The position numbers and the translations under genes are program-made. A stretch of DNA of 64,000 nucleotides from Novosphingobium piscinae (GTDB lineage: Bacteria; Pseudomonadota; Alphaproteobacteria; Sphingomonadales; Sphingomonadaceae): NCBI RefSeq assembly GCF_014230355.1, contig NZ_JACLAX010000011.1, positions 1-64,000 on the forward strand, in the 5' to 3' direction. Below are positions 19,709 to 32,263 of the stretch, piece after piece. Positions within the stretch are counted from its first letter, which is position 1. Each line of letters opens with the position of its first letter. A model generated the notes under the pieces. The model worked only from the letters and a program-made list of their open reading frames with translations, ran no database searches and was not told where the DNA came from.

Positions 19709-21649
19709 ATGACCATGCCTTCCCTCATCCCCGCCCGGCTCAGCGAAGCCCGCCTCCCGCTGGCCCGCCGCCTGCTAGCGCTGTGCCTGCCCGCCCTGGC
19801 TGCCGGCGGGCTGGCCACCGCCTCGCTGCTCGGCGCCGCCCCGGCCAAGCGCATCGCCTCGACCGACGATCTGCAGAGCTTCGACACCCCGCGGATCGAT
19901 CCCGCCACCGCGCCGGGCCGGCCGCTGTTCGAGCAGCACTGCGCGATGTGCCACATGGGCGGCGTGGCCAAGGCGCCCTCGCCCGCGTTCCTCGCCATGG
20001 TGGCGCCGGATTCGATCGTCGCCGCGCTCACCGACGGGGTGATGCGCAACCAGGCCGCGATGCTCAGCCCGGCCGAAAAGATCCAGGTGGCCGAGTACAT
20101 CACCCGCACGCCCTATGCCGCCTACCGCCGCCCGGCGCCGCCGGCGCAGTGCAGCGCGGATCGCGCCGCGCTGGATCTGACCGACCCGCCCGCGGCGATC
20201 GGCTGGGGGCTCGACAACCGCCGCTTCGTCCCGGCCGCCACCGCGCAGCTGCCGGTGGCAGCCGTGCCGAAGCTCAAGCTCAAGTGGGCCTTCGCCTACC
20301 CGGCAGCCAACCGCGCGCGGTCACAGCCGACGCTGGCCTGGGGCACCCTGTTCGTCGGCAGCCAGGATGGCACGGTCTACGCGTTCGATCCGGACAGCGG
20401 CTGCACCCGCTGGACCACCCGGATCAGCGCCGAGGTGCGCACCGCGATCGTGGCCGACGCGGCGACCAAGCGGCTCTATTTCGGGGATCTGCTCGGCAAG
20501 GTCCACGCGCTCGACGCATTGACCGGCAGGGAGCTGTGGGCCGAGCGGATGAGCGATCATCCCGATGCCACGATCACCGGCACCCCCACGCTGGGCGGCG
20601 GGCTGCTCTATGTTCCGGTCTCCTCGCTCGAGGTGGTCCAGGCCGCGGACCCCGCCTATGCCTGCTGCACCTTCCGCGGCTCGGTCGTCGCGCTCGATCC
20701 GGCCACCGGCCGTGAAGTCTGGCGGGCCTGGACCGCGGGCGAGCCGCGGCCCCAGGGCAAGACCGCAGCCGGAACCGCGATCCTCGGACCGTCCGGCTCG
20801 CCGGTCTGGAACAGCCCGACCTTCGACGCCGCCTCGGGCCGGCTCTATTTCGGCAGCGGCGAGAACTATTCGAGCCCGGCCGATGGCAGCTCGGACGCGA
20901 TCTTCGCGCTCGAGGCCAAGACCGGACGGCTGCTTTGGCGGACCCAGCTGACCTCGCGCGATGCGTGGAACGTGGGCTGCATGGTCGGCAACGATTCCTG
21001 CCCGGTCGAGAACGGGCCGGACTACGACGTCGCCGCCAGCCCGCTGCTGATCACCGGCGACAACGGCCAGCCGGTGCTGGTCGCCGGGCAGAAGTCGGGA
21101 CAGGCCTGGGGGCTCGATCCCGCGACCGGGCAGATCCGCTGGCGCACGCGGCTTGGCCATGGCGGCACCCAGGGCGGCGTGCACTTCGGGATGGCCGCCG
21201 AGGGCGGGACGGTGTTCGTCCCGATCAACGACATGGCCGACACCGGCGACGCGCGCGTCTACGACGTCAAGCAACGCGGTGCCGGGCTCCACGCGCTCGA
21301 CGCCGCGACCGGCAAGGTCAAGTGGTTCGCCCGCGCGCCCGACGCGTGCCGCGGGATCAAGTTCTGCGATCCCGGGATCTCGGCGGCCGTGACGGCGATC
21401 CCCGGCGCGGTCTTCGCCGGCCACCTCGACGGCATGCTGCGCGCCTACGACAGCCGCTCCGGCCGGGTGTTGTGGCAGGTCGATACCAAGCGGCCAATGA
21501 CCACGATCGACGGGCGCACCACCAAGGGCGGCAGCATGAGCGGCCCCGGCGCCGCGGTGTGGAAGGGCAAGGTCGTCGTCAACTCGGGCTACGGCATGTA
21601 CAGCCACATGGCGGGCAACGCGCTGATGGTGTTCGAGCCGGCGCGCTGA
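19709..21649 (+). CDS. Secreted quinohaemoprotein dehydrogenase (cytochrome c plus PQQ propeller)
   Basis: A 646-residue periplasmic enzyme. An N-terminal hydrophobic segment (about 20-45) precedes a short cytochrome c domain with C78-xx-C81-H82 (CAMCH). The rest is a PQQ-type beta-propeller with repeated units such as GTVYAFDPDSG, GKVHALDALTGRELW and GSVVALDPATGREVW. Vicinal cysteines C319-C320 (YACCTF) match the disulfide ring that covers PQQ in quinoprotein alcohol dehydrogenases. The haem-first, propeller-second order is that of polyvinyl-alcohol dehydrogenase-type enzymes. It would oxidise an alcohol in the periplasm and pass electrons to the respiratory chain. It is the last gene of the SnoaL/ABM operon; the substrate is unassigned. 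Confidence 0.9.
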   Translation: MTMPSLIPARLSEARLPLARRLLALCLPALAAGGLATASLLGAAPAKRIASTDDLQSFDTPRIDPATAPGRPLFEQHCAMCHMGGVAKAPSPAFLAMVAPDSIVAALTDGVMRNQAAMLSPAEKIQVAEYITRTPYAAYRRPAPPAQCSADRAALDLTDPPAAIGWGLDNRRFVPAATAQLPVAAVPKLKLKWAFAYPAANRARSQPTLAWGTLFVGSQDGTVYAFDPDSGCTRWTTRISAEVRTAIVADAATKRLYFGDLLGKVHALDALTGRELWAERMSDHPDATITGTPTLGGGLLYVPVSSLEVVQAADPAYACCTFRGSVVALDPATGREVWRAWTAGEPRPQGKTAAGTAILGPSGSPVWNSPTFDAASGRLYFGSGENYSSPADGSSDAIFALEAKTGRLLWRTQLTSRDAWNVGCMVGNDSCPVENGPDYDVAASPLLITGDNGQPVLVAGQKSGQAWGLDPATGQIRWRTRLGHGGTQGGVHFGMAAEGGTVFVPINDMADTGDARVYDVKQRGAGLHALDAATGKVKWFARAPDACRGIKFCDPGISAAVTAIPGAVFAGHLDGMLRAYDSRSGRVLWQVDTKRPMTTIDGRTTKGGSMSGPGAAVWKGKVVVNSGYGMYSHMAGNALMVFEPAR

Positions 21650-21719: not shown

Positions 21720-23033
21720 CTAGACCGCGTTGCGCCGGGCGATCGCGCCGAGCACGGCCGCGCTCGGCTTGGCGGTGCGGGCGAAGGTGATCGGGTCGAA
21801 GCTGTGCAGCCCGAAGCGATACTTGTAGCCGAAGCCCCATTCGAAGTTGTCGACCAGCGACCAATGGCAATAGCCGCGCACCGGTACGCCATCGTCGATC
21901 GCGCGCTTGAGCTCGGCCAGCGCGGCGGGGATCAGCCACTGTCGCAGGCTGTCGTCATCGCTGTTGACGCCGTGCTCGGTGACATAGACCGGCAGCCGCG
22001 TCGCCTCCCAGGCATAGCGCACCGCGCCGGCCAGCGAACCCGGCCAGACCTCGGCCCCCGCGGTGTTGCGCCGGGCGTCGGCCGGGGGCGGCACCTCGCC
22101 GCGGGCGTCCCAGCGCTTGCGCTCGTAGTTCTGCACTCCGACGAAGTCGCAGGTCTGTGCAGCCAGACGCAGCCACTCGCCGTAGTAGCGCTCCCGCACG
22201 CGGTCGCGCAGCGAGCCCCGGCCGACCGCCTGGTCGTCGAGGATCGCGAGGCTCACCCCCACCGGCAGGTCGGGGCGGACCGCCTTGATCGCGGCCAGAC
22301 CGCGGCGATGGCCTTCCATCATGCCGGCGCGGTAGACCGGCACGTTCTCGACGTAGAGCGCCACCCCCGGGGCATAGCGCGCCACGCCCAGCTGGCGCGC
22401 CGCGGCCTCCTGCATCGCCTTGTCCCCGGCGACGAGCTCCGCCGGGAGGATCTCGCCGATCACGCCGGCCAGGTTGGGCTCGTTGAGCGTGAGCGCCAGC
22501 GCGATCCCCTCGGCGAGGTGGCGGGCGGCCCGATCGCAGAAGCGCGCGAACAGCCGGGGGGCCTCGGGATGGCTCCAGCCCCCCTGGGCGGCGAACCAGC
22601 GCGGCGTGGTGAAGTGGTTGAAGGTGACGATCGGCTGCAGCCCGCGCGCGCGGCAGCCGGCGATCATCGCCCTGTAGTGATCGAGCATGGCCAGCGAGAA
22701 GTGGCCCGGGTCGGGCTCGATCCGGGCCCACTCGAGGCTGAAGCGATAGGTGTTGAGCCCCAGCGCCTTGACCAGATCAAGATCGACCGGCCAGAGCGCG
22801 AAGCTGTTGGCGGCATCGCCCGAGCGGTCGGCAAAGAGCGTGCCCGGCAGGTTCTCGATCACCCACAGGTCGGCGTTGAGATTGTTGCCTTCGACCTGGT
22901 GCGCGGCGGTCGCGGCGCCCCACAGGAAACCCTCGGGAAAGTGCGGATCGGGCGCGGCACCAAGGGCCCGCGCGGCGGGCCCCAGAACCGCCGTGGCGGC
23001 CAGCGCGGCCAGGGTTGTACGGCGGTCAGGCAT
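21720..23033 (-). CDS. GH1 beta-glucosidase-like glycoside hydrolase, exported
   Basis: A 437-residue glycoside hydrolase family 1 enzyme. The acid/base Glu is E185 in TLNEPN and the nucleophile is E353 in YVTEHGVNS. FLWGAATAAHQVEG, YRFSLEWARIEP and the C-terminal YCHWSLVDNFEWGFGY complete the family signature. The N-terminus DRRTTLAALAATAVLGPA has a twin-arginine and a short hydrophobic stretch, so export, possibly by Tat, is likely. It is the last gene of the leftward set headed by the C-glycoside deglycosidase-like pair. It could remove O-linked glucose from glycosides that carry both O- and C-linked sugars; that link is inferred from context. Confidence 0.94.
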   Translation of the reverse strand: MPDRRTTLAALAATAVLGPAARALGAAPDPHFPEGFLWGAATAAHQVEGNNLNADLWVIENLPGTLFADRSGDAANSFALWPVDLDLVKALGLNTYRFSLEWARIEPDPGHFSLAMLDHYRAMIAGCRARGLQPIVTFNHFTTPRWFAAQGGWSHPEAPRLFARFCDRAARHLAEGIALALTLNEPNLAGVIGEILPAELVAGDKAMQEAAARQLGVARYAPGVALYVENVPVYRAGMMEGHRRGLAAIKAVRPDLPVGVSLAILDDQAVGRGSLRDRVRERYYGEWLRLAAQTCDFVGVQNYERKRWDARGEVPPPADARRNTAGAEVWPGSLAGAVRYAWEATRLPVYVTEHGVNSDDDSLRQWLIPAALAELKRAIDDGVPVRGYCHWSLVDNFEWGFGYKYRFGLHSFDPITFARTAKPSAAVLGAIARRNAV

Positions 23034-23119
23034 CAGGCGTGGTCTCCCGTTGGGGCTGATCGTGTCGCGCGGGGTGCGGTGGGCGGCCCCCGTGAGCCGC
23101 CCACCCTGCCTTATTGGAA

Positions 23120-24133
23120 TCAGAAGTCCAATCCAAAGTTCACCCCGATCTGGCGGACCGAGTTGAAGCCGTAGAGCTGGCCCAGGCCGACCTGGCCGGT
23201 CAGACGGTTGCTCGCTGGCAGCGCAATCCGCAGTTCGTTGGTGAACTGGCGGTAGCGCGTGTCCGAATAGTTGCGGTCGGCGCCATTGCTGTTGGTGTAG
23301 TCGGTATCGAAGTTCTGCTCGCGGTCGGCAGCCTTCCAGGCGGCGGTATTGCTGATCTCGACCCCCGAACCGGTGACATAGGCCAGGGTCGCCTGGACAC
23401 CCCCGCGCGAGACGTCGCGGAAGAACTGGCCGTTGCCGGCGATCAGCAGGTTGGTGGCGCTGGGAACGATGCCCAGCGCATCGTTGAGCGGCCTGGCCCC
23501 GGCCAGCGGGGAGAGGCTCGAATAGGGACGGTCGAAGTAGGTGGCGATGCCCTTCTCGCGGTTGTAGTCACCGATCACGTAGAGCGAGAGGGCCTCGCTC
23601 AGGTTGACCAGGTACTTGGCGCGCAGACCCCACTGCTCCTGGCCGAAATCGCCCGAGCCGCTGCCGATGAACTTCACCACCGGGTCCTGGGTCGAATTGA
23701 CCGCGTTGAGCCGCAGCGCCGAGTCTTCCGAGACGGGAATGTTGAGCGTGGCCTGGCCGACCAGTCCGAGGCCATTGTTCGGCGTGGTCGGACGATGCAC
23801 GCCCTCGACCTGCAGGTTGCCCTCGAAGGCGCCGATGCGCGGCCGGTTGGTGACGATGTTGAGCAGGCCTGCCGAGGCGTTCTTGCCGAACAGCATGCCC
23901 TGCGGGCCGCTCAGCACCTCGACCCGGGCGACGTCGTAGAACTGGCCGACCGCACCGCCGAGGATCGAGTTGGCGAGGTTCACCTCGTCCTGCTGGATGG
24001 CCACGCTCGATTCCAGCGTCTGCTGGAAGGCCAGCGTGCCCACGCCGCGGATCGTGAAGTTGTTCTCGCCGCTGACCTGCAGGCTCGGGGCCGCGGGGGC
24101 GCTCTGCGCGAGCGCCGGGGCAGCGGCCACCAC
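23120..24133 (-). pseudogene. TonB-dependent receptor remnant with in-frame deletions
   Basis: The reading frame stays open for 337 codons but is less than half the length of a normal receptor. Plug sequences SLQVSGENNFTIRGVGT and VARVEVLSGPQGMLFGKNASAG are intact. Before them the usual TonB box and first plug strands (roughly 50 residues) are missing, because a signal-peptide tail (VVAAAPALAQSAPAAP) joins the plug directly. Near the end, barrel sequence ELRIALPASNRLTGQVGL runs straight into a terminal segment RQIGVNFGLDF, so most of the barrel is deleted. The only possible start is a GTG with no good ribosome-binding site. A functional outer-membrane channel is not expected; the ancestor probably imported the glycoside used by this cluster. 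Confidence 0.8.
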
Positions 24134-24156
24134 GCGGCAGGCCGGCGCGGGTCCGG

Positions 24157-24561
24157 TCAGGCCATGACGATGGTGGCGTGGCGCGCGTCGCGGGCCACCG
24201 CCGACTGATGGGCTGGCGGGAAGTAGGGGTGGCGGTAGCCGATCGCGCTTTCGACCCAGTGGACCCCGGGGGCGAGGCCACCGGGCCGGGGCACGATCAC
24301 CGTCATGTATTCGCCCACGGCCAGCCGGGTCTCGGTGGCGGCGTCGAGCTCGGCCGGGGTATAGACCCGGCTGCCGATGCGGACGAGGTTGTGCGCCGCG
24401 GGATAGAGCACCCCGTCGACGGTGATGGTGACCCCCTCGATCAGGCTGAGCCGGGTGCCGCGGTAATTGGCCTGGCGCAGGCGCAGTTCGAACCCGGTGC
24501 GCTCCCCGACCGGCCCGACGTTGCGGAAGCCGGTGCTCTGGATATGGCTGCGCTCAAGCAT
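24157..24561 (-). CDS. C-glycoside deglycosidase-like beta subunit (DUF6379 type)
   Basis: A 134-residue beta-sandwich protein matching the beta subunit of C-glycoside deglycosidases. The recognisable segments are GFRNVGPVGERTGFELRLR, NYRGTRLSLIEGVTITVDG, the YTPAELDAATETRLAVGE region and VPRPGGLAPGVHWVE. In characterised systems (DgpB/CarC-type) this subunit completes the active site of a TIM-barrel alpha subunit, and the pair cleaves the C-C bond of 3-oxo-C-glycosides. The gene overlaps the upstream TIM-barrel gene by eight bases, as expected for subunits of one complex. Family recognition is from remembered motif patterns, not a search. Confidence 0.8.
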   Translation of the reverse strand: MLERSHIQSTGFRNVGPVGERTGFELRLRQANYRGTRLSLIEGVTITVDGVLYPAAHNLVRIGSRVYTPAELDAATETRLAVGEYMTVIVPRPGGLAPGVHWVESAIGYRHPYFPPAHQSAVARDARHATIVMA

Positions 24562-25456
24562 GCTGGGCCTCCCACTCGGCCTCGAGCCGACGGATCAGCG
24601 CGTGCTGGCGGCGCACCTGCTCGATCGCCACCCACGGATCGCGAACGCCCTCGTATTCGCTCGACAGGTAACCGGCGTAGCCGAGCGCCTTGAGCCGGGG
24701 CACAATCCGCTCCCATGGGATCTGGTGATCGTGCAGGTCCTCATCGACGTGATGGAACTTGGCCTGGATGAACGGGACATAGCGGATGATGTCGTCGAGA
24801 TGCTCGACCGGCACCTTGATGCCGTTGACCATGTCGGGGGCATCCTTGCGGATCGCCTCGATGTCGCCGCCGCCCCAGGCCGTCAGCGGGCGGTCCTGGA
24901 AGATGCCGGTATCGAGCATCAGCCCGAAGTTCCTGGTGCCGGTCCGCTCGATGAAAGCGATGTACCCCTCGGTCACCGGATGGTGGATCGGGGTCGGGGC
25001 GTGGATCTCGGGCAGGATGATGATGCCGAGCGCCTGCGCGAGGTCGAGGTTGCGCTCGACCGCCCCTTCCCAGATGGGGTCGGGCGTCAGATTGTAGTCG
25101 ATCACGCCGAACTTGGGACGGATGAACTTGAAGCCCAGCCGGTGCGCCAGCCTGAGGTCGAGCGCGATCTGCTCGGCCCCTTCGGCGACGGTCAGCTTGC
25201 GGTCGAGCTGGATCCGGGTGTCGACCCAGCAGGCAAAGTTGGTCGGCTCAAGCTGGTAGCGCTCGAGCTGGGCGAACCAGTGGTCGAGCCAGGCCGCCGG
25301 CGGCTCGGGATAGAGCGGCACGCTGGTTTCGCCGAGGATCTCGAGCCCGGTCGCACCGGTGTCGGCGACGTGATCGAACGCGTCGTCAAGCGTCATCACC
25401 GTGCCGAGGTCGTCGGTATAGCTGTACAGCGAAACGCCGTACCGAAAGCCGGTCAC
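24554..25456 (-). CDS. C-glycoside deglycosidase-like alpha subunit (sugar phosphate isomerase/epimerase fold)
   Basis: A 300-residue AP-endonuclease-2/xylose-isomerase-like TIM barrel. Probable metal ligands are E150 (ILPEIHAP), D182 (GLMLDTGIF), H235 (QAKFHHVDED) and E267 (YLSSEYEG), the E-D-H-E set of this superfamily. The GTG start is supported by AAGGAGAG. Alone it would be called a sugar isomerase. The overlapping beta-subunit gene makes a C-glycoside deglycosidase (DgpC/CarB-like alpha) much more likely: an enzyme that releases the aglycone from a 3-oxo-C-glucoside. No obvious glucoside 3-oxidase gene is adjacent. The divergent TetR at 25624 is the probable regulator through the inverted repeat upstream. 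Confidence 0.85.
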   Translation of the reverse strand: MTGFRYGVSLYSYTDDLGTVMTLDDAFDHVADTGATGLEILGETSVPLYPEPPAAWLDHWFAQLERYQLEPTNFACWVDTRIQLDRKLTVAEGAEQIALDLRLAHRLGFKFIRPKFGVIDYNLTPDPIWEGAVERNLDLAQALGIIILPEIHAPTPIHHPVTEGYIAFIERTGTRNFGLMLDTGIFQDRPLTAWGGGDIEAIRKDAPDMVNGIKVPVEHLDDIIRYVPFIQAKFHHVDEDLHDHQIPWERIVPRLKALGYAGYLSSEYEGVRDPWVAIEQVRRQHALIRRLEAEWEAQHA

Positions 25457-25492
25457 TGGCCCTCTCCTTGCTGGCTTGCCGTCGCCGGGCGC

Positions 25493-25538
25493 CTATTGAT
25501 CGTTGCTCATTAGACTCGTATTAATCGACGATCAATAG
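25493..25538. promoter_or_regulatory. Large inverted repeat, probable TetR operator
   Basis: CTATTGATCGT (25493-25503) is exactly repeated in inverse at 25528-25538 (ACGATCAATAG). A third half-site gives the tighter palindrome ATTAATCG-A-CGATCAAT (25520-25536). It fills the AT-rich middle of the region between the divergent deglycosidase and tetR genes, so it should control both. Confidence 0.7.
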
Positions 25539-25623
25539 ATTTCTGCGGCGGGGCGGCCCGGCTCCGCGCGGATCCGCCGGGGCGGGCTTGTCAGCCGCCA
25601 AGAACCGGGGCTAAGCCCTTGGC

Positions 25624-26244
25624 ATGACCACCAAGGCCACCGTCCGGGAACGCCGCGGGCAACCCTCGCACCGCGAGGATCTGCGCGGCGAGCTGCTCGC
25701 CGCGGCGGTCCGCTATGTCCTGCGCGAGGGGCATGAGAGCCTGTCGATGCGCCGCCTGGCCGAGGAGGTCGGGGTCTCGCCCGGGGCGCCCTACCACCAC
25801 TTTCCCGATCGCCGCGCGCTGCTGGTGGCCGTGGCGCTCGAAGGCTACCGGGCGATGTTCGCGCAGAACAGCGCCGGTGCGGACGCGGACGACGACCCGC
25901 GTGCCGCGCTGACCAGCGCCTTTCTCAACTTCATCCGCTTCGCGGCGGCCAACCCCACCCTGTTCACGCTGATGTACGAGAGCGAACTGGTCCGGCCGGT
26001 GCTGGCCCCGGAACTCGCCGAGGCCCAGGCGGAAGGCTATCAGCTGATGCGCCGGCTGATCGGCCGGATCGCCACCGGGATCAGCGATACCGAACGGGCG
26101 GTGCGGATCGCCACGATCTGGAGCGCGATCTTCGGCTATGCCTTGCAATGCAACCGCTCGATGCTGCGCGCCTATCCCGCCGAGCCGCCCCCGGACGAGC
26201 TTGCGCCCCAGGTGGTCCAGCAGGCGCTGCGCCTGCTGGCCTGA
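25624..26244 (+). CDS. TetR-family transcriptional regulator (third)
   Basis: A 206-residue TetR protein, unrelated in its C-terminal half to the two TetR paralogues at 5156 and 10936. The DNA-binding domain reads LLAAAVRYVLREGHESL, then RRLAEEVGVSPGAPYHHFPD. The C-terminal domain (FIRFAAANPTLFTLMYESEL, then IWSAIFGYALQ) resembles the WHG/TetR_C group. It is divergent from the C-glycoside deglycosidase-like genes, with a perfect 11-bp inverted repeat in the shared region. It probably represses that operon and itself until a glycoside or aglycone is present; that is inference. Confidence 0.92.
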   Translation: MTTKATVRERRGQPSHREDLRGELLAAAVRYVLREGHESLSMRRLAEEVGVSPGAPYHHFPDRRALLVAVALEGYRAMFAQNSAGADADDDPRAALTSAFLNFIRFAAANPTLFTLMYESELVRPVLAPELAEAQAEGYQLMRRLIGRIATGISDTERAVRIATIWSAIFGYALQCNRSMLRAYPAEPPPDELAPQVVQQALRLLA

Positions 26245-26282: not shown

Positions 26283-26339
26283 GCTACAGTGGCGCCGAGC
26301 CGCCGGAATCGCTCCGGTCGGGCCGGTCAGGGAGAGTCC

Positions 26340-27302
26340 ATGCCACGCCACGCCCATTGTCCGCGCCCACGCCTGCGCCCCCTGGCGCGCCTGTCCCTGT
26401 CGGTTTTCGCCCTCCTCGCCCTGCCCGCCGCGGCCGCCGTGGCCGCGCCGGGCCCGGAGCTGCCGCTGTGGCCCGGCGTGGCGCCGGGCAGCGAAGACTG
26501 GACCCAGCCCGAGCAGGTCCTGGCCGACGGGGCCAACGGGCGCCGCGTGATCAACGTCTCGGTCCCGACCATGACGGTCTATCGCCCGGCGCGCGGCCGC
26601 GGCAACGGCACCGCGATCATCGTCGCCCCGGGCGGCGGCATGCGCGTGCTGGCGATCGACTCGGGCGGCACCCGCGTGGCCGAATGGCTCAGCGCGCGGG
26701 GCTTCACCGCCGTGCTGCTGAAGTACCGCATCCGCCAGCAGGACCCCGCCCGCGCCGCGGCGGTGCCCCGCCCCTCCCCCGACGCGCCCGAGCTGACCAT
26801 CGTCCGCGCCAATGCCGATCCGGCGCAGGACGATCCGGCGATGGCCTCGGTCTACCGGATGGCCGTGGCCGATGCGGCCCAGGCGATCCGGCTGGTGCGC
26901 GGCCATGCGCGGGACTGGCGCATCGATCCGGCCCGGGTCGGCATTCTCGGCTTCTCGGCCGGGGGCGGCGTGGCCGTGGGCACGGCGCTGGCCGAGCCCG
27001 GTCCGGGCTACCCCGCCTTCGTCGCCACACTGTTCGGTCCGGCCCTCGCCGACGTGACCGTGCCCGCCGCGGCGCCACCGCTGTTCATGGCGGTGCGGCA
27101 GGACCACTGGAACGTCACCCCGGGGCTCGTCGCGCTGTTCAGCACCTGGCGCGCGGCGCGCAAGCCGGCCGAGCTGCACGTCTACGACATGGCCAACGGG
27201 CAGATCGGCATGGCCCCGACCGGCACCCCGATCGACGGCTGGAAGGACCGCCTGCTCGAATGGCTTGCGCTGCGCGGTTTCGCCCCCCGGCCTAGGCGAT
27301 AA
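26340..27302 (+). CDS. Exported alpha/beta-hydrolase (carbohydrate-esterase-like), His replaced
   Basis: A 320-residue hydrolase with a signal peptide (hydrophobic core LSLSVFALLALPAAAAVAA). The oxyanion strand is IIVAPGGGMRVL and the nucleophile S206 lies in GFSAGGG, as in acetyl-xylan and feruloyl esterase-like (BD-FAE) enzymes. The expected C-terminal catalytic His (usually GGHG) is Gln: HVYDMANGQIGM, about Q288. The enzyme may therefore be slow, use another residue, or be inactive. CAGGGAGAG precedes the ATG. It stands directly downstream of LacI-type operator 1 and converges on the lacI-like gene. A role in removing acyl groups from an imported glycan or glycoside is plausible. Confidence 0.85.
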   Translation: MPRHAHCPRPRLRPLARLSLSVFALLALPAAAAVAAPGPELPLWPGVAPGSEDWTQPEQVLADGANGRRVINVSVPTMTVYRPARGRGNGTAIIVAPGGGMRVLAIDSGGTRVAEWLSARGFTAVLLKYRIRQQDPARAAAVPRPSPDAPELTIVRANADPAQDDPAMASVYRMAVADAAQAIRLVRGHARDWRIDPARVGILGFSAGGGVAVGTALAEPGPGYPAFVATLFGPALADVTVPAAAPPLFMAVRQDHWNVTPGLVALFSTWRAARKPAELHVYDMANGQIGMAPTGTPIDGWKDRLLEWLALRGFAPRPRR

Positions 27303-27353: not shown

Positions 27354-28355
27354 TCAGGCGCTCTCGCGCGCGATCAGGCGGAAGCCCACGTCGATCACGC
27401 TGGCCGGGACGGTCTCGCCGGCGTCGCGCTGGCGGATCGCGGCGATCGCCTCGCGGGCGATGCGCGCGCCGTCGATGTCCACCGTGGTGATCGTCGGACG
27501 CATGTCGCCGGCGATCGACGAATTGCCGAAGCCGACCACGGCGAGCTGGTCAGGCACGCGCAGCCCGGCGGCCTGGGCCTCGATGATCAGGCCCTGCGCG
27601 AGGTAATCCGAACCGCAAACCACCACGTCCGGCGCCGGATCCATGTGGCGCAGGTCGGCGAAGACCTTGCGCGCGTGGCCGAAGCGCGTGGGGATCGAGA
27701 CCGTGGCCTCGGTCACCGGCCCGCCTACCTGCACGGCCCATTCGGCGACGAACCCGTCCCGGCGCTGCATCGCGCGCGATCCCGGCGCCGTGACGATGTG
27801 CGGCCGGCGATAGCCGCGCGCGGCAAGGAACCGCGCGATGTCCCGGCCGACGTCGCGGTGGTGGAAGCCGATCGCCAGCCCGGGCGGGTGCTCGGGCAGG
27901 TCCCAGACCTGGATGAACAGCACCGGACTGCGCCGCACCAGGGCCTTGGTCTCCTCGTCGAGCGGACCGGTCGAGATGATCGCGTCGACCCGCCGGCTCA
28001 GCGCGGCGCGGATCATCTCGGCCTCGCGGCGCGGCAACAGCCCGGTCAGCCCCATCATCACGTTCAGTCCCGAGGCGGCGAGCTCGTTGACCATCGCCTC
28101 GATCGTGTCGTTGAAGATCGAATCGACCAGGTGGGGGATCAGCACGGCGACCATGCGCGACTTCGACGAGGCGAGCCCCCCGGCCATCAGGTTGGGGATA
28201 TAGCCGGTCGCCTCGATCGCGGCCTTGATCCGCTCGGCCGTCCGCGGCGCGACCACGTCGGGGTTGTTGATGTAGCGGCTGACCGTGGCCGAGGAGACCT
28301 CGGCATGGGCGGCGACATCGTCGAGCGTGGTGTTGCGGGCGGGAGCCTGGCTCAT
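27354..28355 (-). CDS. LacI-family transcriptional regulator
   Basis: A 333-residue LacI/GalR repressor. The N-terminal helix-turn-helix and hinge are textbook: TTLDDVAAHAEVSSATVSRY, then ATGYIPNLMAGGLASSKS. The periplasmic-binding-protein-like core ends with VVGFGNSSIAGDMRPTITTV. It sits between genes that carry LacI-type operators (TGCAAGCGCTT cores), so it is the obvious candidate to bind all five sites. Its effector is probably a sugar or sugar acid. The gene is leftward and 20 bases after the P450 gene, with which it may be co-transcribed. Confidence 0.95.
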   Translation of the reverse strand: MSQAPARNTTLDDVAAHAEVSSATVSRYINNPDVVAPRTAERIKAAIEATGYIPNLMAGGLASSKSRMVAVLIPHLVDSIFNDTIEAMVNELAASGLNVMMGLTGLLPRREAEMIRAALSRRVDAIISTGPLDEETKALVRRSPVLFIQVWDLPEHPPGLAIGFHHRDVGRDIARFLAARGYRRPHIVTAPGSRAMQRRDGFVAEWAVQVGGPVTEATVSIPTRFGHARKVFADLRHMDPAPDVVVCGSDYLAQGLIIEAQAAGLRVPDQLAVVGFGNSSIAGDMRPTITTVDIDGARIAREAIAAIRQRDAGETVPASVIDVGFRLIARESA

Positions 28356-28375
28356 CGCGGCAACACTAGCGCCGC

Positions 28376-29557
28376 TCAGCCGAAGCGCAACGGCACCTGC
28401 AACGGACCGATCTCGGGCCAGCGGCTCATGGTGATTTCGCCGGCCAGCGAGAAGCCGTCCGGCGTCGCGCGCATCAGCTCTTCCATCGCCACGCGCAGCT
28501 GCATCCGCCCGAGGTGCAGCCCCGGACAATTGTGGGGGCCGCGGCCGAAGGCCAGGCTCTCGGCGATGTTGGGGCGGTTGAGGATGAACCGGTCGCCCTC
28601 GGGAAAGACGCTCTCGTCGCGGTTGGCCGAACAGTAGAGCAAGGCGATCGGCTCGCCCTCGAGGATCGTGCGCCCGCCCAGCGTGACGTCGCGCGCGGGA
28701 GTGCGGGCAAAGCCGCGGTAAGGCGAATAGAGCCGCAGGAACTCCTCGATCGCGGCGGGCCACAGCGCGGGATCGTCGCGCAGCTGCTGCTGCAGCGCAG
28801 GGTGGCGGCACAGGTGCACGCAGATCGAGCCGATCATCACCAGCGGGGCGACAATGCCGACCAGCAGGACCTGCCGCACCGTGCCGACCACCATCTCCTC
28901 GGGCAGCGGGGCGCCCTCGTGCCGCGCGGCCAGCAGCGCGCTGGTCGGGTCGAGCGCGGGATCCTGGGGCGCCTCGCGCCGCATCCGGATCAGCTCGCGG
29001 GCCATCTCGTAGAGCCGCAGGCTGGTTTCCTTCATCCGTTCGGGATGGTTCATGTGCACCGCCAGGACGAAAGCCCGGCCCGCATCGTGCAGCGGATCGA
29101 GCAGGTGGCCCGGCATGCGCATCCATTCGCCGAAGATGTGGACCGGCAGATGGCTCGAAAACTCGCGGCAGATGTCGCCCCCGCCGCGCGCGACCAGCGG
29201 CGCGAGCAGGCGCTGCGCCAGCCGGCGCGCGGCCGGGGCGAAGCTTTCCGAGCGCTCCTGCGACAGCAGTGGATTGAGCGCCTTGCGATAGGGGGTGTGC
29301 TCGGGCGGATCGAGATGCAGCGGAGGACGGCGGCCGGTGAAAGCCACCTTGGGCACGACGTTCTGGCGCGAGGTGAGAAAGGTGGCCGAATCGGTCGCCG
29401 CGCGCTTGACGTCCTCGTAGCGCGCCAGGGCCCAGAACCCGCCGAGCGCCCCGGTGTGCGCCACCGGGCATTCCGCCCGCAGGCGGCTGAACTCGCGGTG
29501 GGCGCTGTCGAAATCCTCCGGGGTTTCCGGATCGAAGTCTTGGGTCGGCGCGGACAT
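28376..29557 (-). CDS. Cytochrome P450 with atypical I-helix
   Basis: A 393-residue soluble bacterial P450. The haem ligand is C344 in FGRGPHNCPG, and ExxR is E272-R275 (EEFLR). The I-helix segment LLVGIVAPLVMIGS (about 231-244) lacks the usual acid-alcohol pair: Val-Ala-Pro stands where (Asp/Glu)-Thr is expected. Such changes alter proton delivery and are seen in P450s that use peroxide or have special chemistry. No ferredoxin or reductase gene is near. LacI-type operator 2 lies 32 bases upstream of the ATG, so it belongs to the LacI module. A sugar-linked monooxygenation, such as removal of methyl groups from methylated sugars, is one possibility, not demonstrated. Confidence 0.92.
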   Translation of the reverse strand: MSAPTQDFDPETPEDFDSAHREFSRLRAECPVAHTGALGGFWALARYEDVKRAATDSATFLTSRQNVVPKVAFTGRRPPLHLDPPEHTPYRKALNPLLSQERSESFAPAARRLAQRLLAPLVARGGGDICREFSSHLPVHIFGEWMRMPGHLLDPLHDAGRAFVLAVHMNHPERMKETSLRLYEMARELIRMRREAPQDPALDPTSALLAARHEGAPLPEEMVVGTVRQVLLVGIVAPLVMIGSICVHLCRHPALQQQLRDDPALWPAAIEEFLRLYSPYRGFARTPARDVTLGGRTILEGEPIALLYCSANRDESVFPEGDRFILNRPNIAESLAFGRGPHNCPGLHLGRMQLRVAMEELMRATPDGFSLAGEITMSRWPEIGPLQVPLRFG

Positions 29558-29588
29558 GCCGGCCGGGATAGAACCGCACGGGCCGTCA

Positions 29589-29602: not shown

Positions 29603-29735
29603 CACGATGGCGCCGGGGCGGTTCGGGCCCGTGACGGCCGTCCCGGCGGCCGGTAGCTCCACAGACAGCGGGATAACCGCCCACCCCCCCGGATCAATCG
29701 GAACCGCTGCGGGGAAATCGGTCGACGCCGCCTTA

Positions 29736-29749
29736 TGCAAGCGCTAACA
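29736..29749. promoter_or_regulatory. LacI-type operator 3
   Basis: TGCAAGCGCTAACA, 17 bases before the MFS transporter ATG, so bound protein would block initiation. With operator 2 about 147 bp away, a looped repression complex across the divergent promoters is conceivable. Confidence 0.68.
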
Positions 29750-29765
29750 CAGGGCCGGGACCGGG

Positions 29766-31073
29766 ATGGAGCCGAATCAGGGCGTGCAGCAGACCATCGA
29801 GCAAGTCATCGGCCGAAAGGTCATACGGCGGCTGGTGCTGCCCTGCATCCTGTTCACCCTGATGGGCTCGATCGACCGCACCAACGTGGGCTTCGCGGCG
29901 CTGCAGATGAACACCGATCTCGGGCTCTCGGCCACGGCTTACGGGTTCGGCGCGGGGATCCTGTTCGTCGGCTATGTGCTGGCCAAGTATCCCAGCGTGC
30001 GGCTCTACGAGACGATCGGGTTTCGCCGCTGGCTGGCGACGATCACCCTTGCCTGGGGGCTGGCCGCCTGCCTGCTGGCGCTGATCCAGACCCAGGGCCA
30101 GCTTTACCTGCTGCGGGTGCTGATCGGCTTCGCCGAGGGCGGGCTGTCGTCCGGGCTGATGCTCTATCTCGGGCACTGGGCGCCGGAGCGCTGGCGGGCC
30201 ACGATCCTGGCCGTGCCGATCATGTCGATCAACGTCTCGCAAGTGATCGGCGGGCCGCTCTCGGGCCTGCTGCTCGACATGGACAACCCGCTCGGCATCG
30301 CCGGCTGGCGCTTCATGTTCCTGGTCGAGGCCCTGCCCGCGGTGGCGCTGGCGGTCTTCGCCTGGTGCTACTTCCCCGACCGCCCGGCCGATGCCGCCTG
30401 GCTCGACGCGGCCGAGCGGCAATGGCTGCGCGATCATGTCCATGCCGAACGGCGCAAGGCGCCCGGCGGGGACGGGTCGGGCCGGTGGGAGGCGCTGCGC
30501 AGCCGCAGCGGATGGCTCTGCGCGCTGATCTGGTTCTGCATCCTGGCCAGCAACTACGGCGTCATGTTCTGGCTGCCGACGATCGTGAAGGGTCTGTCTG
30601 GCCTGACCGCGACCCAGACCGGCCTGATCGTCGCATTGCCCAATGCCGCGGCTGCGGTAGGGCTGCTGATCAACGCACGCCATTCGGACCGGACCGGCGA
30701 GCGCTTCCTGCACATTGCCCTGCCCGCGCTGGTCGGCGGCTTCGGCCTGCTCGGCGCGCTGCTGCTCGGCCCGGGGCCGGGCGGGTTGGCCCTGCTGATC
30801 CTCGGCGGCGCCTGCACCGGCTGCACCGTCGCCGCGTTCTGGGCGGTCCCGACCCGGATCCTGCGCCCCGAGGCGCTGGCGATGGGCGTGGTCATGATCA
30901 ACATGCTCGGCTCCTTCGCCGGGGCGCTGATCCCGCCGGCGATGGGTGCGCTGCGCGAGGCCAGCGGGTCTTACCTGCCGCCCACCCTGCTCATCACCGG
31001 GATCGCCTGCCTGCTGGCGACGCTGTGTCTGATCACCCGGGCACAGATCGCCCGCAGCGGGGCAACCCCATGA
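29766..31073 (+). CDS. MFS transporter, anion:cation symporter-like (ACS)
   Basis: A 435-residue 12-helix transporter. The N-terminal RRLVLPCILFTLMGSIDRTN followed by VGFAALQMN is diagnostic for the ACS group, which carries sugar acids, tartrate, hydroxyphenylacetate and similar anions; GFAEGGLSSGLMLYLGHW is also conserved. It heads a four-gene chain whose members overlap by ATGA or GTGA, so they must be translated together. LacI-type operator 3 precedes the start. It likely imports the carbohydrate-derived acid processed by the LacI module. Confidence 0.92.
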   Translation: MEPNQGVQQTIEQVIGRKVIRRLVLPCILFTLMGSIDRTNVGFAALQMNTDLGLSATAYGFGAGILFVGYVLAKYPSVRLYETIGFRRWLATITLAWGLAACLLALIQTQGQLYLLRVLIGFAEGGLSSGLMLYLGHWAPERWRATILAVPIMSINVSQVIGGPLSGLLLDMDNPLGIAGWRFMFLVEALPAVALAVFAWCYFPDRPADAAWLDAAERQWLRDHVHAERRKAPGGDGSGRWEALRSRSGWLCALIWFCILASNYGVMFWLPTIVKGLSGLTATQTGLIVALPNAAAAVGLLINARHSDRTGERFLHIALPALVGGFGLLGALLLGPGPGGLALLILGGACTGCTVAAFWAVPTRILRPEALAMGVVMINMLGSFAGALIPPAMGALREASGSYLPPTLLITGIACLLATLCLITRAQIARSGATP

Positions 31074-32263
31074 CCCTGCGCGGCCTCCTCCTCCCCCGCG
31101 CTGCCACGCCCGCCCGCCGCCCGGGCAGCGGCGTGGTGCTGGCGCTTGCCGGGCTGGCCGCGCTCGGTTCGCTGGCGACCCAGCTGGTCGTCCCGGCCCT
31201 GCCGCCGATCGCCCACGCCTTCGCCGCCAGCCCGGCCGCGGTGCAAAAGGTGATCGGGGTCTATCTGCTGGGGTTGGCGATCGGCCAGTTCGTCGCCGGC
31301 CCGCTCAGCGACCGCGCCGGGCGTCGTCCGGTGCTGCTCGGTGGCCTGGCCCTGTTCGTCTGCGGCAGCCTCGCCGCAGCACTGGCCCCGGCCCTGCCGC
31401 TGCTGCTCGCGGCGCGGCTGGTACAGGCGCTGGGCGGGGCCTGCGGGATCGTCGTCGCGCGGGTCATGGTGGGCGACCTGTTCCCACCAGACGAGGTCGC
31501 CGCCCGGCAGGCCACGCTGATGTCGGTGGTCCTCATCTCCCCCGCCGTCGCCCCGGTGATCGGCGGGCTGATCGCCGAGGCGGCCGGCTGGCGCGCGGTC
31601 TTCGGGCTGCTCACCCTGACCGGCGCGCTGGTCGCGCTCGCGGCGCTGGGCCGCCTCGGCGAGACCCGCCGCACCCCCGCCGCGCCCGGCCCCGGGCTGC
31701 TGGCGGCCTGGCGCGAGCTGGCCGGGCTGCCCCGCTTCACCGGCCATGCCCTGGCGATCGCCTGCGGCAGCGCGGCGCTCTATACCTTCCTCGCCGCGGC
31801 GCCGTTCCTGCTGGCGCGCGACCACGGGCTCGGCCCGCGCGACACCGGCCTGCTGCTGCTGCTGATCGCGGCCAGCAGCATCGTCGGCACGCGCTGCGTC
31901 CGCCGCCTCAACCGCACCGGCCGCGGCGCGGTGCGCGGCGCGGCCTGGGCGGCCGGGGGCGCCATGCTGCTGGTCGTCTTCGCTGTCGCCGGGTGGCACC
32001 AGCTGGCCGCCTTCGTCGGACCGATGGTGCTGATCGGCTTCGGCACCGGGGTCCTCGGCCCGACCGGAATCGCGCAGGTGATCGTCGCCCGCCCGGGGCT
32101 GGAGGGCACCGCCTCGAGCCTCGCCGGCGCAGGGCAGATGCTCGCCAGTGCCCTCGCCAGCAGCCTGATCGGCGCGGCCGACACCCTGCACCTCGGCACC
32201 GTGGTGCTGAGCCTTGCCGCCCTCGCCCTTGTCTTCGCCGCCTATGGACGCCGACCCGCATGA
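31070..32263 (+). CDS. MFS transporter, Bcr/CflA-like
   Basis: A 397-residue transporter of the drug-exporter (DHA1, Bcr/CflA) branch. Typical segments are ATQLVVPALPPIAHAF, VYLLGLAIGQFVAGPLSDR with the GRRPVLLGG loop, and MSVVLISPAVAPVIGG. It overlaps the ACS transporter by ATGA and the cytochrome gene by ATGA. Pairing an importer with an exporter suggests removal of a product or toxic intermediate. The exported compound is unknown. Confidence 0.9.
   Translation: MTLRGLLLPRAATPARRPGSGVVLALAGLAALGSLATQLVVPALPPIAHAFAASPAAVQKVIGVYLLGLAIGQFVAGPLSDRAGRRPVLLGGLALFVCGSLAAALAPALPLLLAARLVQALGGACGIVVARVMVGDLFPPDEVAARQATLMSVVLISPAVAPVIGGLIAEAAGWRAVFGLLTLTGALVALAALGRLGETRRTPAAPGPGLLAAWRELAGLPRFTGHALAIACGSAALYTFLAAAPFLLARDHGLGPRDTGLLLLLIAASSIVGTRCVRRLNRTGRGAVRGAAWAAGGAMLLVVFAVAGWHQLAAFVGPMVLIGFGTGVLGPTGIAQVIVARPGLEGTASSLAGAGQMLASALASSLIGAADTLHLGTVVLSLAALALVFAAYGRRPA

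Follow-up and report, generated by a model that had tools for sequence, protein, structure and literature searches.

A predicted two-gene lyase of the C-glycoside deglycosidase family with Gln231 and His235 at its active site in Novosphingobium piscinae

We analysed a stretch of 64,000 nucleotides from Novosphingobium piscinae (contig NZ_JACLAX010000011.1, positions 1 to 64,000), referred to here as the window, which contains a pair of genes resembling the two-part lyases known as C-glycoside deglycosidases (CGDs). The alpha gene (24554-25456, minus strand) begins with GTG and encodes a TIM-barrel protein of 300 amino acids. The beta gene (24157-24561, minus strand) begins with ATG and encodes 134 amino acids. 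Alpha is the first of the two, and the genes overlap by 8 bases (24554-24561); we recovered the same open reading frames (ORFs) and overlap as the original prediction, which had been made from the letters of the DNA alone. The GFRNV, YRGTRLSLIE and PGGLAPGxH segments by which the small protein had been described as a DUF6379-type beta subunit are all present, and its match to PF19906 (CGDB, DUF6379; "C-glycoside deglycosidase beta subunit") scores 107.6 bits, the cut-off being 27.6, with residues 2-113 falling on profile positions 1-112, which places beta inside this family. A profile search assigned alpha to PF01261, the xylose isomerase-like barrel superfamily. In NCBIfam, no family matched either protein at E ≤ 0.01.

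Comparison with solved structures gave a closer placement of both proteins. With alpha as the phmmer query, the PDB yields eight distinct sequences up to an E value of 1, every one of them a CGD alpha, led by 8qrz (E = 6.5e-104); residues 141-429 of 8qrz match the window alpha and residues 2-133 the window beta. The alpha model (mean predicted local distance difference test score, pLDDT, of 89.7) returned CGDs in its first 16 Foldseek matches, including 8qrz at E = 2.6e-39. In structure comparison it reached a Z score of 39.8 to 8qrz and scores of 29.8-39.8 to 13 CGD entries; the first non-CGD entry scored 23.8. The beta model (pLDDT 86.4) likewise returned CGDs in its first 17 fold-search matches, and all later matches have E values above 0.01. 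On an Arthrobacter plasmid, one ORF of 430 residues (L056:8578-9867; E = 1e-217 to 8qrz) is a beta-alpha fusion. Such natural fusions, in 8qrz and in L056, indicate that the window alpha and beta are probably partners, evidence that is good though indirect.

Membership of PF01261, together with the lack of one of the CGD metal ligands (see below), would also fit alpha being a free sugar isomerase or epimerase and the small protein an unrelated passenger. We regard this as highly improbable and reject the isomerase reading for alpha. Both alignment and structure comparison favour the CGDs, so that the better match to a free sugar isomerase considered in the original prediction was not what we found; beta belongs to PF19906, the subunits are fused in the two proteins just mentioned, and of the 21 other loci compared that share Gln231 and His235 with the window, 20 have a beta gene after alpha. 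The one exception, in a Novosphingobium metagenome-assembled genome (MAG; L038:2273-3175), has an alpha that diverges after residue 280 and no beta found ahead of the receptor gene, reflecting either a deletion or a fault of the MAG. Profile, sequence, fold, gene order and natural beta-alpha fusion thus all speak for the CGD assignment. Membership of the pair in the CGD family of 3-keto-glucoside lyases is as good as certain, and the pair is a further member of an already known two-part type; from these relatives we infer its enzyme activity, alpha-beta complex, substrate and metal.

The metal in AgCGD2 is reported to be coordinated by Glu147, Asp179, His269, Lys271 and Glu305, with His149 and Glu307 acting in catalysis (PMC8563793). 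When the window alpha is aligned with the solved CGDs, E150, D182, Q231, K233 and E267 occupy the ligand places and H152 and E269 the catalytic places. The ligand histidine (AgCGD2 His269) thus aligns with Gln231, and the nearby H235 lies four residues later, directly after the strand formed by residues 229-234 of the model. The original prediction had proposed a metal set of E150, D182, H235 and E267. All four residues exist as numbered and three of them stand at aligned ligand places, but H235 does not, because Q231 holds that place, and we reject it as the aligned metal histidine.

The exchange at this position is not peculiar to the window. Among 42 alphas, E150, H152, D182, K233, E267 and E269 are invariant (42 of 42), and the residues at the 231 and 235 places are Gln and His in 26, His and Phe in 8, His and Tyr in 6, and Gln and Tyr in 2, giving Gln231 in 28 of 42. 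This comparison omits the alpha of L057, a plasmid of N. humi KACC 19094, in which the gene (L057:12001-12900) carries one early in-frame stop; a second N. humi record has a full-length alpha match at 83%. In a midpoint-rooted FastTree phylogeny, the 26 Gln231/His235 alphas form one branch and the two Gln-Tyr sequences lie on another. The sequence of 8qrz also has Gln and His at both places, within the same Gln-Ala-Lys-Phe-His stretch. Since Gln231 is found throughout a branch and in a deposited CGD, the altered ligand is not the sign of one dead enzyme: judged from these alignments, Gln231/His235 is a trait of the whole branch. Because 8QRZ also has Gln here, histidine at the AgCGD2 269 place is, by the same alignments, a common rather than a defining CGD trait. 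On the beta side, Tyr33 lies at the place of PuCGE Tyr39beta, as follows from the phmmer match to 7bvr_B, whose numbering is offset by +6, and Tyr is present at this place in all 32 betas compared. In PuCGE, exchange of Tyr39beta for Phe is reported to abolish nearly all C-glucoside cleavage and to lower O-glucoside cleavage 2.4-fold (PMC10628242).

The closest solved relative is the Microbacterium testaceum protein deposited as 8QRZ and 8UN2, which is 55-56% identical over alpha and 39% over beta. It differs from the window pair in that beta and alpha form one 435-residue chain with beta first, instead of two genes with alpha first. "C-glucosyl deglycosidase" is the depositors' name for 8QRZ, and a literature search by entry code, key words and organism found no paper on it or its relatives. 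DfgA-DfgB (7BVS, 7DRE), which we take to be the EuCGD of Eubacterium cellulosolvens, resembles the window pair in its short alpha (290 residues), in a beta that starts with an IQSxGFRN motif, and in keeping the E, D, K and E places and the catalytic His; it differs in having His at the metal position, in its identity of 35-37% and in coming from a gut anaerobe. DgpB-DgpC (PuCGD/PuCGE), AgCGD2 (7DNM) and the Deinococcus aerius CGD (8QVC) are likewise alpha/beta lyases encoded by two genes and sharing this fold, and all match the window alpha, but their alphas are longer (337-354 residues) and use the His ligand. The intestinal CGDs are described as heterooctamers (PMC8563793). AtOGE, the 3-keto-O-glucoside eliminase of Agrobacterium, has the same kind of barrel, works by beta-elimination and likewise relies on a catalytic His (PMC10628242), but has no beta subunit and uses His as its first ligand. 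We reject an eliminase of the AtOGE type for the window since beta is present and Glu150 stands at the first ligand place.

Divergent from alpha lies a gene for a TetR-family regulator (25624-26244, plus strand; PF00440). In the gap between the two are two operator-like dyads of 19 bases each, at 25494-25512 and 25519-25537, the second 25 bases from the first. With strands counted separately, a pattern written from these sites has three matches in the window, where 0.04 would be expected. When up to 3 mismatches are allowed, the genome contains one further site (C43:131052, 2-3 mismatches), near an ORF that by eye is amidohydrolase-like; we take this site to be a chance match. Alignment of eight TetR-alpha gaps revealed paired imperfect dyads in all eight. 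The two best scored sites are 24-26 bases apart in six gaps and 55-60 bases apart in the other two, and none of 500 shuffled versions of each gap reached the motif score; the scored consensus was drawn from the same sequences, and the shuffles exclude an effect of base composition only. When only perfect inverted repeats (arms of at least 7 bases) were sought, a long repeat spanning both dyads came up in two of the eight gaps (the window and L032), other repeats in two, and nothing in four (L030, L031, L033 and L057). We consider the window dyads putative TetR operators, at which the regulator would bind.

Downstream of the pair are a TonB-dependent receptor remnant (23120-24133, minus strand) and a GH1 glycosidase (21720-23033, minus strand; PF00232, 177.7 bits). 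The GH1 is predicted to be exported, judging by eye from an N-terminal RR followed by a hydrophobic stretch, and is 75-79% identical to the GH1 enzymes of Novosphingobium and Sphingomonas clusters and 62% identical to that of the Niveispirillum-like genome G470. An esterase-like gene adjoining the TetR gene (26337-27302, plus strand) is 34% identical to the esterase found inside Novosphingobium clusters, making it a possible rather than a certain member of the cluster. In naming an exported GH1, a receptor remnant and a TetR belonging to the cluster, the original prediction agrees with our assignments.

The receptor has lost about half of its length; missing are the start of its signal peptide and the greater part of its second half. 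Only residues 15-326 align, at 45% identity, with residues 86-390 of the intact 792-residue receptor of related loci; by eye, its end resembles a C-terminus and its first codons the end of a signal peptide that lacks a start. No close intact receptor was found elsewhere in the genome, where the best other match is 36% identical. This truncation is either real decay or a fault of the assembly. Such damage raises the question of whether the window copy is turning into a pseudogene cluster that no longer works, and it speaks for that reading that the orthologue of the relatives' cluster esterase is not beside the window receptor and that the genome contains two other CGD pairs. Alpha, beta, GH1 and TetR, however, are all full length and free of stops, every aligned catalytic residue is kept and neither operator-like dyad has been lost, and on balance we hold it improbable that the window copy has stopped working.

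Three further genes lie nearby in the window. Adjoining the GH1 gene, 19709-21649 (plus strand) encodes a cytochrome c domain joined to a beta-propeller of the pyrroloquinoline quinone (PQQ) type; no match to it was displayed at the relatives' loci in the cluster comparisons, and we remark on this quinoprotein without adopting it as the oxidase. Beyond the esterase-like gene are a GntR-like LacI regulator (27354-29579, minus strand) and a Bcr/CflA-type MFS transporter (29735-32263, plus strand), each with a listed ORF much longer than its domain, so that the true start is probably internal. Rfam gave no match in the window at gathering scores.

At E ≤ 1e-20, relatives of alpha turned up in 3 genomes of a family sample of 298 and in 2 of a class sample of 385, the genome of origin being counted in both. 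A scan of public genomes with alpha yielded 26 loci: 10 from Novosphingobium (62-83% identity), 5 from Niveispirillum, Azospirillum and strain AAP38 (76-77%), 3 from Sphingomonas (59-63%) and 8 from rumen Bacteroidales (36-38%). In the CGD pairs of the Bacteroidales MAGs (L048-L055), place 231 is His and place 235 is Phe; only alpha, beta and, in L049, one esterase match among the cluster queries. On plasmids, 19 records match alpha, the closest being those of N. humi (83%), Novosphingobium sp. PP1Y (82%, plasmid Mpl) and Croceicoccus (68%). The closest named relatives, by alpha and by gene order, are Novosphingobium, in keeping with the "sphingomonad-type" genome of the original prediction. 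The best relative in the class draw, G470, belongs to another family (77%), and named Niveispirillum and Azospirillum alphas (76-77%) branch near Novosphingobium sequences. This pattern suggests horizontal transfer.

To describe gene neighbourhoods, we counted BLAST matches above 60 bits over more than half of the query within 10 kb of alpha at 27 loci; these include the window, which counts by construction since its genes were among the queries, and some loci are cut by contig ends. Homologues of the window TetR are present at 21 loci (20 of the 26 other than the window), the receptor at 19, GH1 at 11, a hydrolase of the 3-keto-disaccharide hydrolase family PF06439 at 10, GH106 at 9, MFS at 8, GMC at 6, esterase at 6, and Gluconate_2-dh3 and a flavin monooxygenase at 2 each. 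L025, which has only fragments, was not counted for GMC, and the esterase count misses the G470-type carboxylesterase (PF00135). Three Novosphingobium loci (L031, L032 and L058) share the order TetR, alpha, beta, 792-residue receptor, esterase and GH1, and L034-L036 and G470 carry GH106, receptor, alpha, beta, GH1, MFS and GMC. The Niveispirillum irakense locus (L033) has TetR, alpha (77%), beta (63%) and TonB receptor in the same order as the window; it differs in its full-length receptor and in adding a flavin monooxygenase, MFS, Gluconate_2-dh3 and GMC. Genes for a PhyH-type dioxygenase, an aldose epimerase and a PF06439-type hydrolase lie near the pair in L024, L040 and L060; L024 and L060, but not L040, also have an FMN (flavin mononucleotide) dehydrogenase and Gfo/Idh.

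The known partner oxidases of CGDs include DgpA, which is NAD (nicotinamide adenine dinucleotide)-dependent and of the Gfo/Idh/MocA family, and CarA/PurA, which are reported to be FAD (flavin adenine dinucleotide) oxidases (PMC12724307, PMC11239390). None of our GMC, Gluconate_2-dh3 or Gfo/Idh queries matched in the window, and with them neither a DgpA-type nor a CarA/PurA-type enzyme was found beside the pair, consistent with the original prediction that the oxidase is not adjacent. Of the six loci with GMC near the pair, two of which also have Gluconate_2-dh3, none is a named Novosphingobium, so in Novosphingobium the link to an oxidase is indirect.

The genome contains three PF19906 genes, that of the window and two on contig C41. 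The first part of C41 between 67 and 93.5 kb carries MFS, GMC with Gluconate_2-dh3 (68607-70955), a receptor, an alpha/beta hydrolase and a monooxygenase-like gene (75857). These are followed by LysR, a transporter, one CGD pair (82479-83967), a TIM protein, Gfo/Idh/MocA, MFS and an esterase, and lastly by a second CGD pair (89562-90973), GMC (91070-92689) and another TIM protein; the MFS, LysR, transporter and receptor genes were named by eye or by BLAST. Two pairs of TIM and DUF6379 genes, with GMC and an extra TIM gene, are similarly arranged on plasmid pNL2 of N. aromaticivorans DSM 12444 (L068, 5986-7420 and 9603-11001). The first GMC of C41 is 69% identical to the in-cluster GMC of N. 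irakense and 74% to that of the Sphingomonas locus L044, with fructose dehydrogenase as its best solved relative; the second is 50% identical to the GMC of G470 over 535 residues, and its best solved relative is a chloramphenicol-inactivating oxidoreductase. Because C41 holds homologues of the oxidoreductases that some relatives keep within their clusters, the missing oxidase is probably encoded elsewhere in the same genome, with the C41 GMCs as the strongest candidates for supplying the window pair in trans. The genome-wide search for a glucoside 3-dehydrogenase that had been proposed thus yields candidates on C41 and, in addition, near 23-38 kb of C5, where there are two more sets of GMC and Gluconate_2-dh3, so that C41 is not the only possible source. 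We found no dyad-type site on C41, and co-regulation of its oxidases by the window TetR is therefore not supported. The best match in the genome to the N. irakense-like aglycone monooxygenase is 33% identical and also lies on C41.

The Gluconate_2-dh3 protein of C41 opens with NRREFMG, which by eye resembles the beginning of an exported protein, and this led us to put forward a model of periplasmic oxidation. Here an exported GMC with Gluconate_2-dh3, linked to the respiratory chain, would carry out the 3-keto step in the periplasm, and the keto-glycoside would be imported to a lyase of the Gln231/His235 clade, with its rebuilt metal site, under its own TetR and double operator, as a distinct branch of C-glycoside catabolism in sphingomonads and relatives. 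As a whole, this elaboration is tentative and rather doubtful.

CGD chemistry is described as oxidation at C3, binding of the 3-keto sugar to a metal, proton removal at C2 by a His base and beta-elimination, followed by hydration and reduction by other enzymes (PMC8563793, PMC10628242). By analogy, an FAD enzyme encoded elsewhere would oxidise C3 of the glucosyl residue on a plant polyphenol, and the alpha barrel would hold the resulting 3-keto sugar on a divalent metal while His152 takes the C2 proton. Beta-elimination would then separate sugar and aglycone, yielding 2-hydroxy-3-keto-glucal and the free aglycone, with Tyr33 of beta helping to keep the phenol in its anionic form, which lets the carbon leave. 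GH1, along with the esterases and GH106 rhamnosidases of relatives, may first trim decorations, and TetR at the double operator would switch the operon.

We infer that the cluster handles plant C-glycosides, as the original prediction proposed, although its GH1, esterase and rhamnosidase neighbours would also suit O-glycosylated or mixed glycosides. A related CGD is reported to cleave 3-keto-O-glucosides too (PMC10628242), and a lyase of this family might act mainly on flavonoid 3-keto-O-glucosides with weak or absent C-C cleavage. PuCGE, a solved relative, is described as cleaving 3-keto O- and C-glucosides, and C-glycosides as typically a minor share of plant glycosides (PMC10628242); in addition, the GH1, esterase and GH106 neighbours act on O-linked groups, and the metal site is altered. 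Set against this, beta and its Tyr33 are kept throughout, and in PuCGE they are reported to be needed specifically for C-glucoside cleavage (PMC10628242), the GH1 would hydrolyse simple O-glucosides unaided, and the closest solved enzyme was deposited as a C-glucosyl deglycosidase. A mainly O-directed lyase is therefore the less likely reading though by no means a negligible one, and we favour C- over O-glycosides as natural substrates by about two to one.

Taken as a whole, a CGD-type alpha/beta lyase fed by an FAD enzyme, with the operon under TetR, is the best explanation of the locus, at a probability of roughly 0.85. Several points weigh against it. Alanine mutation of the His269 counterparts in PuCGD and MiCGD is reported to cut activity dramatically (PMC8563793), and the window alpha has Gln231 here; our literature search turned up no activity measurements on the Gln231/His235 branch. 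No GMC lies within 10 kb of the pair at 21 of the 27 loci, including every named Novosphingobium locus (some cut by contig ends), and among the PDB matches of the C41 GMCs (E ≤ 1e-20 and 1e-10) no chain is named as a C-glycoside or glycoside 3-oxidase. Finally, the receptor is broken, and the cluster may be decaying.

Plant glycosides joined by a C-C bond resist ordinary glycosidases. The characterised CGD lyases in the literature consulted come from gut Firmicutes and soil Actinobacteria, and a literature search on C-glycosides in Novosphingobium gave no paper with a title on this subject. The present comparison places a well-defined branch of the family in Novosphingobium, Sphingomonas, Croceicoccus, Niveispirillum and Azospirillum, where many members are surrounded by receptors, transporters, trimming enzymes and a regulator, and it names candidate oxidase partners. 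Clusters are present in named strains, of the window type in Novosphingobium sp. PP1Y and of the C41 type in N. aromaticivorans DSM 12444, and the Gln231/His235 site in this branch makes it possible to ask directly which ligands are required for the reaction.

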